Of a stretch of 64,000 nucleotides of DNA, positions 21,964 to 25,142 are shown piece by piece. Numbering within the stretch: the first letter of the stretch is position 1; each line of letters opens with the position of its first letter. This stretch comes from an uncultured Pelagibacteraceae bacterium (GTDB lineage: Bacteria > Pseudomonadota > Alphaproteobacteria > Pelagibacterales > Pelagibacteraceae), in NCBI GenBank assembly GCA_902573865.1, contig CACGLI010000001.1, positions 1 to 64,000 of the forward strand, given 5' to 3'. The notes below the pieces were generated by a model. That model did no database searches, was not told the origin of the DNA, and saw only the letters and a program-made list of their open reading frames with translations. The position numbers were made by a program, and so were the translations under genes.

Positions 21964-22359
21964 ATGAAAATAAAAGTCCCATATTATATACATAAAGTAG
22001 GTGCTGGTTTTCCATCGCCAGCAACAGATTATATAGAGGATGATGTAGACTTGAATTCTCATCTAATAAAAAATGCACCAGCAACTTTTATAATAAGAGT
22101 TCAAGGCAAATCCATGAAAGAAGTTGGCATTCACGATGGCGATCTTTTAATAGTAGATAGAAGTTTAGTAGCAAAAAATCTTTCAACAGTAGTGGCTAAC
22201 GTTGGAGAAGAACTAGTAGTAAAAACATTAATAAAAGAGAAAACCGGTAATTATTTAACTTCAGGATCAAAAAATACTTCTGGGAAAATAAAACTTCAGG
22301 AAAATCCTGAGGTAATCGTCTGGGGAGTTGTAACTTATGTCATACATCAATTGCATTAG
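21964..22359 (+). CDS. umuD: UmuD-like autoproteolytic Pol V subunit / LexA-family S24 peptidase
   Basis: VGAGFPSPATDYIEDDVDLNSHLI...RVQGKSMKEVGIHDGDLLIVDRSL...LVVKTL: Ser/Lys dyad and UmuD processing region. Confidence 0.94.
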   Translation: MKIKVPYYIHKVGAGFPSPATDYIEDDVDLNSHLIKNAPATFIIRVQGKSMKEVGIHDGDLLIVDRSLVAKNLSTVVANVGEELVVKTLIKEKTGNYLTSGSKNTSGKIKLQENPEVIVWGVVTYVIHQLH

Positions 22360-23623
22360 AAGAAATAGGAATAAGATAGCACTGGTAGATTGTAATTCAT
22401 TCTATGTTTCTTGTGAAAGATTATTTAATCCCAAGATAGAAAAAAAACCAGTAGTAGTTTTATCAAACAATGACGGTTGTGTTATATCTAGGTCGCAAGA
22501 GGCAAAGTCAATGGGGATAAAAATGGGTGAACCATATTTTAAAGTAAAACATTTAGTAAAAAAAAATAAAATTGAAGTTTTCTCTTCCAATTATGCTTTG
22601 TACGGAGATTTATCAAGAAGAGTAATGAAAGTATTAAAAACATTTTCACCACAAGTTGAAATATACTCAATAGATGAAGCTTTTATTGATCTATCCTTTA
22701 TGGATGAAAAAGGAGTAGAGGAATATGGAAAAGAGATAAGAGAAAAAGTTTTGAAGTGGGTTGGAATACCTACTAGTGTAGGTATAGCATCCACAAAAAC
22801 CCTAAGCAAGGTTGCTAATCATATCGCAAAAAAAGAAAGAAATGGAGTTATGTATTTAGATAAAAACATAGACTTAATTTTAAAAAATTTTCCAATTGAA
22901 GATGTTTGGGGTGTAGGAAAACAATTATCAAAATTTTATAAGAAAAATGATATAAAAACTGCATACGATTTAAAAAATGCATCAAGCACATGGGTTAAAA
23001 AGGGTACAAATGTATTAGGAGCAAAAACTGCAATGGAGTTGAGAGAAGTGCCCTGCATAAATTTACAAATAGACCAAGAAAAAAGAAAAAATTGTTGTGT
23101 ATCCCGTTCATTTGGTAGGAAAGTGGACAACATTAATGAACTAGAGGAGGCAGTTATAACTCACTGTTTAAATGCTGCAGAAAAAATTAGAGCAGACAAT
23201 CAAGTTGCAAAAACAATAACAGTTTTCATAAGAACAAGCCCATTTGATAAAAGTAAAAGATATTATTCGAATTCAAGAACTTTAGATTTTCCAATAGCAA
23301 CTAGCAATAGTATAGAAATGATCAAACAAGCTGTAAGGGCTCTTAATGATATTTATAAATATGGTTATATGTATCAAAAAGCTGGAGTAATACTATCAAA
23401 CTTAAAAGACTCTAAGAACAATCAAGAAAATTTATTAACTCCTTTATTAGAAGATAAATCAAAAACATTAATGAAAGCAATTGACTACACAAACACAAAA
23501 TATGGAAGATACGCGATTAGCATAGCACAAGCAGGACTTAGTAAAGGATGGAAAATGAGAAGGGAGCATTCATCAAAGATTGATACAGCTTCATTTGACT
23601 CATTACCAACTATTGATATATAG
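22337..23623 (+). CDS. umuC: Y-family translesion DNA polymerase V catalytic subunit UmuC
   Basis: ALVDCNSFYVSCERLFNP; VVVLSNNDGCVISRSQEAK; VEIYSIDEAFIDL. Confidence 0.96.
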   Translation: MSYINCIRRNRNKIALVDCNSFYVSCERLFNPKIEKKPVVVLSNNDGCVISRSQEAKSMGIKMGEPYFKVKHLVKKNKIEVFSSNYALYGDLSRRVMKVLKTFSPQVEIYSIDEAFIDLSFMDEKGVEEYGKEIREKVLKWVGIPTSVGIASTKTLSKVANHIAKKERNGVMYLDKNIDLILKNFPIEDVWGVGKQLSKFYKKNDIKTAYDLKNASSTWVKKGTNVLGAKTAMELREVPCINLQIDQEKRKNCCVSRSFGRKVDNINELEEAVITHCLNAAEKIRADNQVAKTITVFIRTSPFDKSKRYYSNSRTLDFPIATSNSIEMIKQAVRALNDIYKYGYMYQKAGVILSNLKDSKNNQENLLTPLLEDKSKTLMKAIDYTNTKYGRYAISIAQAGLSKGWKMRREHSSKIDTASFDSLPTIDI

Positions 23624-23626
23624 GTA

Positions 23627-23698
23627 TCCATGGGGTGTCTGAACGACTGAGATCATACCCAAAGAACCTGACCGGTAATTCAGTGAGGGATTAATGGA
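23627..23698 (+). ncRNA. TPP riboswitch (THI element), compact
   Basis: GGGGTGT...CTGAGATCATACCC...GAACCTGACCGGTAATTCAGTGAGGGA matches the THI-box core order; flanked by TCCAT/ATGGA complementarity (P1). Confidence 0.92.
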
Positions 23699-25142
23699 AA
23701 CAACATACTTAACTTCGCAGACCTCTTTAATGGTAATCCTTCTTGTAGGATTTTTTTTTGTGATATTAGGTTATACAAATTCAAAAAAAAACGCAGATAA
23801 TAATAGTCATATAGTCGGTAATAGAGATGAAAATATTCTTTCTTTAACAGCAAGCTTGTCAGCATCAGCACTAGGTGCATGGATATTATTTGGGCCAGCG
23901 TCAGCAGCAACTTGGGGAGGAATAGGCGCAGTAATAGGTTATTCATGTGGAACAGCGGCACCAATGTTATTTTTGTTAAATTTTGGGCCAAAAATTAGAA
24001 AAGAATTTCCTAAAGGTATGTCAATAACTGATTTTGTAAAAAAAAGATTTGGATTAGATATTTTAAAGATAATTTTAATTCTAATCTTATTTTATTTAAC
24101 GATTTTTTTGATAGCAGAAGTAACAGCAATTGCTTTTTTATTAAACCTAATCTCAAATACACCTTTATGGATAACATCTGGATTAACTTTATTAATCTGT
24201 CTACTTTATATAATAAAAGGAGGTTTTAAGCTCTCAATTATTACTGATAAATATCAATTTTCAATTATTGTTGTATTAATTTTGTTTTCCTTATTTTTAA
24301 TTTTAAAAAATTTAGAAATGAATAGTTTTGAATTAATTAGGAAAAATGCTCCTAAACTTTTAAGTGAAAAATACCTTTTAAATTATACCGCTGGTTTAAC
24401 TTTTTTCATAGCAGTAGCCGCAACCAATTTGTTTCATCAAGGTAATTGGCAAAGAGTATTCGCTGCAAAAGATAATTTAATTTTAAAAAAAAGTTTGATT
24501 TATTCATCAATAATTTCATTCTTAATAGTTTTTTGGATGGGTTATACAGGTTTGATATCATTTTCACTGGATCCTAATGTGAGTCCAGATTTAGCATTTT
24601 TTAACTTAATATTTTCTAATAATAGTTTTGTAATTATTATTATATTGATTTTAGCTTTGGCATTAACACTGAGTACCATTGATACATTAATTAACGCTAT
24701 CTCAAGTTTATTGATTATAAATGGAAAAGAAATAAATGGATATTTTATGGGAGCAGAAATAAAAAATAAAGTTAATAAACTTATATTGGTATTAAGCATT
24801 TTTGTTTTTATCCTATCTTCTAGGGGATATAGTATTTTATATTTATTTTTACTCGCTGATCTTCTTTGTTGTGCTGCAGTTATTACGATATTTTACGGTT
24901 TTATAAATAAAAAATTCAATATTAAACTAGCCAAAATTTCAATTATATCAGGTTTGATATCTGGGTTATTATTTTTTCCAAACCAATCATTTCAATCTAG
25001 CTTATTAGTAGGTAATCTTTTTTCTCTGGATAATTTTAACCAACTTATTTCAACGAATTTGCTTTTTATTTCATTCATGGTAGCGTTGGTTGTGCCCTTA
25101 ATTATTATTATGTGTTATTCTTTACGCAATTCATTAAGATAA
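23694..25142 (+). CDS. thiV: Sodium:solute symporter family protein, candidate thiamin-precursor (HMP) transporter ThiV
   Basis: SSS-type multi-TM protein (LSASALGAWILFGPASAATWGGIGAVIGYSCG) directly downstream of TPP riboswitch, an arrangement described in SAR11. Confidence 0.82.
   Translation: METTYLTSQTSLMVILLVGFFFVILGYTNSKKNADNNSHIVGNRDENILSLTASLSASALGAWILFGPASAATWGGIGAVIGYSCGTAAPMLFLLNFGPKIRKEFPKGMSITDFVKKRFGLDILKIILILILFYLTIFLIAEVTAIAFLLNLISNTPLWITSGLTLLICLLYIIKGGFKLSIITDKYQFSIIVVLILFSLFLILKNLEMNSFELIRKNAPKLLSEKYLLNYTAGLTFFIAVAATNLFHQGNWQRVFAAKDNLILKKSLIYSSIISFLIVFWMGYTGLISFSLDPNVSPDLAFFNLIFSNNSFVIIIILILALALTLSTIDTLINAISSLLIINGKEINGYFMGAEIKNKVNKLILVLSIFVFILSSRGYSILYLFLLADLLCCAAVITIFYGFINKKFNIKLAKISIISGLISGLLFFPNQSFQSSLLVGNLFSLDNFNQLISTNLLFISFMVALVVPLIIIMCYSLRNSLR

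Follow-up and report, generated by a model that had tools for sequence, protein, structure and literature searches.

A pared-down THI-element variant lacking a conserved P1 helix upstream of thiV in SAR11 bacteria

Introduction

A TPP riboswitch located before thiV was reported in 2009 in 'Candidatus Pelagibacter ubique' (SAR11_0811), as told in passages of Meyer et al. (PMC2704228), and the first-pass annotation of the locus studied here likewise treated such control as already described in SAR11. As far as those passages go, the thiV regulator itself is already known in SAR11, and the locus analyzed in this work carries the same gene and the same element. A further source on this riboswitch is reportedly Carini et al. 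2014. SAR11 bacteria rely on imported HMP for vitamin B1, with thiV as the likely importer, and the regulation of thiV is therefore relevant for marine vitamin cycling. In excerpts of PMC11452348, ThiV has been proposed as the HMP importer of SAR11. Direct translation attenuation is a known mode of action of TPP riboswitches, and sequestration of the ribosome-binding site within the aptamer core is most common for this riboswitch class, according to sections of PMC2258182. In the J4/5 junction of the aptamer, G60, C77 and G78 are more than 95% conserved in the Rfam seed (PMC3764141), and two of them, C77 and G78, are in contact with the pyrophosphate in the structure of the E. coli aptamer (PMC3764141, PMC7824784). 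The main-text passages of the papers on the SAR11 thiV riboswitch make no mention of a lost P1, a contracted J4/5 or a promoter inside umuC.

Materials and methods

The window, that is, the whole stretch of 64,000 nucleotides analyzed, was searched with Rfam at the default threshold and with an E-value threshold; the gathering cut-off of the TPP model (RF00059) is 54.3 bits. Leaders were gathered by genome searches, many of the genomes being single-cell assemblies, and up to 256 of them were parsed and sorted by aptamer type into g1-type (window-like), g4-type (sister genus) and a further set with canonical J4/5. The names g1, g3, g4 and g5 and the L numbers are labels coined in this analysis. 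Since the leader parser requires CTGAGA and [GA]AACC, more divergent forms and variation in those motifs are not counted. Aptamer homology, the pairing of P2, P3 and P5, the absence of P1 covariation and the constraint on the promoter were all established by comparison. All features described lie on the forward (+) strand.

Results

The search with an E-value threshold has revealed an RF00059 match at 23621-23707 (+) with 38.1 bits (E 2.2e-6), which is the sole one in the source genome. The THI-element core noticed in the first-pass annotation is thus present, and the check with RF00059 that had been proposed there gave a match, although below the 54.3-bit cut-off. Because of this low score a default Rfam search misses the element, and no TPP riboswitch was reported when the window was searched at the default threshold. 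A match was found in 323 of 397 Pelagibacteraceae genomes, and the default cut-off misses nearly all such elements in the family (16/397 genomes pass). Of the 99 genomes with a match in a sample spanning the class Alphaproteobacteria, 94 reached the cut-off, and the window score was the lowest among the matches listed in that search. With nearly the whole family below the cut-off, the element might be the remains of a TPP riboswitch that has lost its function and is decaying, but the wide retention of the match, a P4 strand and AGGGA that are almost invariant and the compensatory changes in P2, P3 and P5 make this reading improbable in the extreme. Judging by the model match, the element is a THI-element homologue of the TPP riboswitch lineage upstream of thiV, real but heavily pared down. 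As P1, the C77-G78 residues and a score at the cut-off were all tested for and none was found, it is classified on these comparisons as a divergent THI-element variant and not as a certified member of the TPP-sensing family.

Among the RF00059 features, the P2 helix, the J3/2 CUGAGA pyrimidine motif and P4 (CCU:AGG, with GAACCU and AGGGA) were found in the window. P2 covers positions 23631-23661, including the parts that it encloses, with the pairs U23631-A23661, G23632-C23660, G23633-C23659, G23634-C23658 and U23636-A23657. In 157 distinct sequences, the base 5' of GGGG covaried with the base 3' of the P2 CCC, the first J2/4 base (49 T-A, 41 A-T and 26 C-G), and the positions equivalent to T23631 and A23661 were paired in 78% as compared with 44% (sd 3.6) after permutation (z about 9). 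No partner was found in this covariation test for the next position outward from the T23631 equivalent. As identified by covariation, T23631 is paired with A23661 in the outermost pair of P2, and it is therefore unavailable to the start codon. The minimal P3 (23637-23647; G23637-C23647, U23638-A23646, C23639-G23645 and a UGAAC loop) was paired in every one of 116 distinct aptamers, U-A and C-G replacing each other. The pyrimidine-binding motif CUGAGA of J3/2 (23647-23652) was intact in the window and in the parsed homologues, the parser being anchored on this motif. P4 and P5 occupy positions 23667-23688, P4 consisting of C23667-G23688, C23668-G23687 and U23669-A23686, and P5 of A23671-U23684, C23672-G23683, a C.A mismatch, G23674-C23681 and G23675-U23680. 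The A-U/U-A pair of P5 covaried (63/50 of 116 distinct aptamers), and the C.A mismatch was present in 110 of the 116.

The Shine-Dalgarno sequence GAGGGA (23685-23690) is part of P4 and of its 3' junction, so that the earlier placement of the ribosome-binding sequence in the conserved 3' strand of the riboswitch was correct. AGGGA was found in 114 of the 116 distinct aptamers and AGGAA in the other two. The thiV gene (23694-25142) codes for a sodium:solute symporter (HMP transporter; PF00474, 29.3 bits), and its ATG is located 3 nt after AGGGA. No other usable start exists near this ATG (23694), and homologues begin at the equivalent ATG, with a conserved N-terminus. Wherever a start was identified in a homologue, the AUG follows AGG[GA]A at a distance of 2-8 nt, an arrangement of the direct translation attenuation type that agrees with the lack of a separate expression platform noted before. 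In a sublineage of the sister genus (L165, L166, L197, L244, L246, L253) the thiV start is apparently TTG, 5 nt after AGGGA.

The first-pass annotation had also proposed that TCCAT (23627-23631) pairs with ATGGA (23694-23698) as a P1 helix containing the thiV AUG, so that ligand binding would occlude both the Shine-Dalgarno sequence and the start codon. Letters and coordinates were right, and the two segments are exact reverse complements over 5 bp; in addition, the pairing is kept with one G-U in the closest relative (L032), six bases pair with the AUG in the sister-genus leaders L129, L162, L163, L196 and L205, and the helix adds 2.3 kcal/mol to the aptamer fold. Nevertheless, when the 12 nt preceding GGGG and the 14 nt following AGGGA are shuffled, the two strands still match in a run of at least five Watson-Crick pairs in 10% of cases. 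The fold prediction that had been suggested as a check leaves the helix unformed in the minimum-energy structure, and its pairs have a probability of 0.09-0.11; minimum-energy folding of the longer RNA was uninformative (z = -0.28). Pairing in the AUG register was the same in own and permuted leaders (0.47 vs 0.47 in the window's group, 0.62 vs 0.64 in the sister genus), and all five pairs were found in only 2/68 distinct g1-type leaders, namely the window and its nearest relative L032, and in 9/75 of the sister genus. The register is shifted by 3 nt from the canonical P1, T23631 belongs to P2, and the TCCAT strand is located at or before the predicted transcription start. The covariation whose lack had been named beforehand as a ground for refutation is indeed lacking in the homologues, ATGGA is unsupported as a helix partner, and by these measures the complementarity is a coincidence, no more than expected by chance. 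A P1 built on the start codon is consequently considered very improbable. One sublineage of the sister genus has YAT before GGGG, and its potential start-codon pairing, promising at first, showed no excess over permutation.

In the Rfam alignment of the window, P1 would be nearer by 3 nt on its 3' side, with 2/5 pairs broken. This canonical register, 3/5 paired in the window, is 45% paired in the window's group, which pairs no better than permuted leaders, as compared with 84% in the canonical J4/5 leaders from basal SAR11 genera. In this canonical set the P1 duplex energy averaged -5.41 kcal/mol in true leaders and -4.28 kcal/mol in permuted ones (p=0.0035, permutation p-values being optimistic and overstating independence because the sequences share ancestry). 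A P1 signal was absent in the g1-type (own -0.30, permuted -0.45 kcal/mol) and in the g4-type (-1.47 and -1.60 kcal/mol) leaders. As judged from these energies, a normal P1 is kept in basal SAR11 genera and has been lost in the two main genera. For the window, the canonical P1 and an alternative AUCC:GGAU helix were both considered, and neither is conserved.

The umuC gene (22337-23623; NF002955, 403 bits; Pfam IMS) ends with the stop codon TAG at 23621-23623, 8 nt before the aptamer, and in most genomes of the window's genus this distance is 8-11 nt. In the window, the umuD-umuC genes of the error-prone polymerase V (21964-23623) end 8 nt before the thiV aptamer. A -35 element, TTGACT (23595-23600), was located within the umuC coding sequence on the Phe-Asp codons TTT GAC. 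The Phe codon was TTT in 61/61 distinct umuC 3' ends, and the Asp codon was GAC in 60/61. Among the remaining Asp codons of the gene only 18% (210/1151) are GAC, and the runner-up site in conservation reaches 51%. The TTGAC box keeps a near-fixed distance to the aptamer and is followed 16-18 nt downstream by a 5/6 or 6/6 match to TATAAT in 55/61 TTGAC-bearing relatives. The -10 element of the window, TATATA (23617-23622), overlaps the umuC stop codon and matches 4/6, most relatives having TATAAT or TATAAA. In the sister genus, where umuC does not adjoin thiV, this site reads Phe-Tyr (TTTTAT) and the box is absent, and L104 and L105, which have lost umuC upstream, retain TTGACT-N16-18-TATA. The TATATAA before the aptamer was rejected as promoter proof on its own because it is confounded by the Ile-stop codons of umuC, and the evidence was sought in the codons at the -35 site and in the genomes lacking umuC. 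A sigma-70 promoter scan of the window found nothing, since the scan demands a fixed T at position 6. Taken from codon usage, the promoter at the end of umuC is under synonymous constraint.

The UmuC C-terminus is FDSLP in the window's genus and FYCLP in the sister genus, a change from FYCLP to FDSLP that apparently occurred because these codons double as the -35 box. The sole exception to the TTGAC box is L030 (G167), a member of the window's genus with the canonical CG in J4/5, located downstream of umuC with a 26-nt gap and with GAT at the promoter site, which suggests that riboswitch and promoter were replaced together.

From the promoter boxes, transcription is predicted to start at about 23629 +/- 2 (23627-23631), a zone that overlaps TCCAT. 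In 40/61 relatives the predicted +1 lies at position -2 counted from the first aptamer G, with a range from -4 to +1. The 5' end of the thiV transcript is thus probably no more than about 2 nt away from the aptamer, in which case the 5' strand of P1 would hardly be transcribed. No SAR11 transcription-start map was found in the open-access literature. RNA from 23630 folds into P2 and P4-P5 by itself, whereas RNA from 23621 prefers another fold, and in the window's group P4 was formed in 92% with 1-4 upstream nucleotides versus 29% with 40; this preference for the short RNA was not seen in the sister genus. If transcription started at A23630, the RNA would open with a six-codon leaderless frame (AUG GGG UGU CUG AAC GAC UGA, 23630-23650), which is not conserved and is probably due to chance.

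An ordinary P1, in the canonical register or as AUCC:GGAU, could still form in a longer transcript coming from umuC or from an upstream promoter, as umuC, on the same strand, terminates 8 nt before the aptamer and may be read through, and as a canonical P1 exists in basal SAR11. The poor pairing of the canonical register in the window and its group, the loss of a G from P4 that AUCC:GGAU would cause, the terminating umuC ribosome, which would presumably cover the aptamer, and the constraint on a dedicated promoter render this explanation unlikely.

The J4/5 junction of the window (23670-23685) is contracted, with only G23670 opposite G23685 and without equivalents of E. coli C77 and G78; G60 is kept and the CG is missing. 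The distance from CCU to AGG is 20 nt in canonical aptamers and 16 nt in the g1-, g3- and g4-type ones. In 116/116 distinct aptamers only one base faces G60 before P5 resumes (A in 83+1, G in 32) and counterparts of C77 and G78 are lacking, and in one of the 116 the G60 equivalent is A. The CG was kept in 45/45 other parsed alphaproteobacterial aptamers, including 15 weak ones. In the sampled SAR11, the two main genera are devoid of both P1 and the CG contacts, g5 keeps P1 without CG, and canonical forms with P1 and CG precede apparent thiV homologues in other genera of the family. Contracted aptamers in another genus of the family (L113, L115, L119, L120, L145-L147) precede not thiV but a gene starting MKIKLALEWFINPDHLPFIVG, whose product resembles pyrimidine-precursor binding proteins of the ThiY/THI5 type, and canonical-type aptamers with P1 in L004 and L010 precede a dehydrogenase-like gene starting MNLPINKQTILITGAGRGLGSE instead of thiV.

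As the two bases that contact the pyrophosphate are missing, TPP binding is not assured, although TPP may still be the ligand. After the loss of the C77/G78 pocket, the RNA could sense HMP, HMP-P, HMP-PP or thiamin (mono)phosphate in place of TPP, a reading that overlaps the preferred one. J4/5 is contracted in the g1, g3 and g4 types while the CUGAGA pyrimidine motif is kept, the lost residues are those in contact with pyrophosphate (PMC7824784, PMC3764141), and the target genes are for pyrimidine uptake, either thiV or a gene starting MKIKLALEWFINPDH that resembles ThiY/THI5. On the other hand, known TPP aptamers need the pyrophosphate for affinity, a rearranged pocket could still bind it via Mg2+, and TPP feedback on HMP uptake would also be sensible, so that a change of ligand is regarded as doubtful. 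The fuller proposal, in which the THI-element variant of the main SAR11 genera is devoid of both P1 and the pyrophosphate pocket, starts at the first aptamer nucleotides and senses HMP-P/HMP-PP or thiamin monophosphate rather than TPP, is likewise doubtful. If it is true, some of the most abundant marine bacteria would possess a variant class of riboswitch. The open-access literature yielded no description of a variant TPP aptamer in SAR11.

The explanation considered likely, on sequence grounds, is a P1-less, SAR11-specific THI-element variant in which the RNA starts at the aptamer and the Shine-Dalgarno sequence is hidden in P4 to control thiV translation. We infer the start site, the ligand (TPP or a relative) and the switching. 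According to this model, a dedicated thiV promoter would lie in the final 30 nt of umuC and the mRNA would start no more than about 2 nt from the aptamer; the RNA would thus open directly with P2. Ligand binding at the three-way core would stabilize P4 (CCU:AGG), and the stabilized P4 would hide GAGGGA, formed by the P4 3' strand and the junction, from the ribosome. When the ligand is scarce, the Shine-Dalgarno sequence would open and the AUG 3 nt downstream would be used; P1, a start-codon helix and a separate expression platform would all be unnecessary. Against this model, read-through from umuC could yield a longer transcript, and the -10 element of the window matches only 4/6.

Discussion

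The element described here would be a case of riboswitch minimization, with neither P1 nor expression platform, a predicted transcription start at the aptamer and a promoter inside the neighbor gene. Its pocket is devoid of residues regarded as essential, and TPP is only assumed as the ligand in this system.

The thiV element resembles the TPP riboswitch (RF00059) of the direct translation attenuation type in P2, P3, CUGAGA, GAACCU, P4 and AGGGA as Shine-Dalgarno sequence, and in the thiamin-pathway gene located downstream, but it differs in having no conserved P1, a contracted J4/5 without C77-G78 and a P3 of three pairs. The SAM-V and SAM-II riboswitches of Pelagibacter are likewise compact SAR11 aptamers a few nucleotides from the start codon, although with an unrelated pseudoknot fold and another ligand. 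The thiS motif (HMP-PP riboswitch, PMC6478431) senses a thiamin pyrimidine precursor, which is a possible ligand of the window element, whereas its structure is different and embedded in a terminator, with no sequence relation seen between the two.
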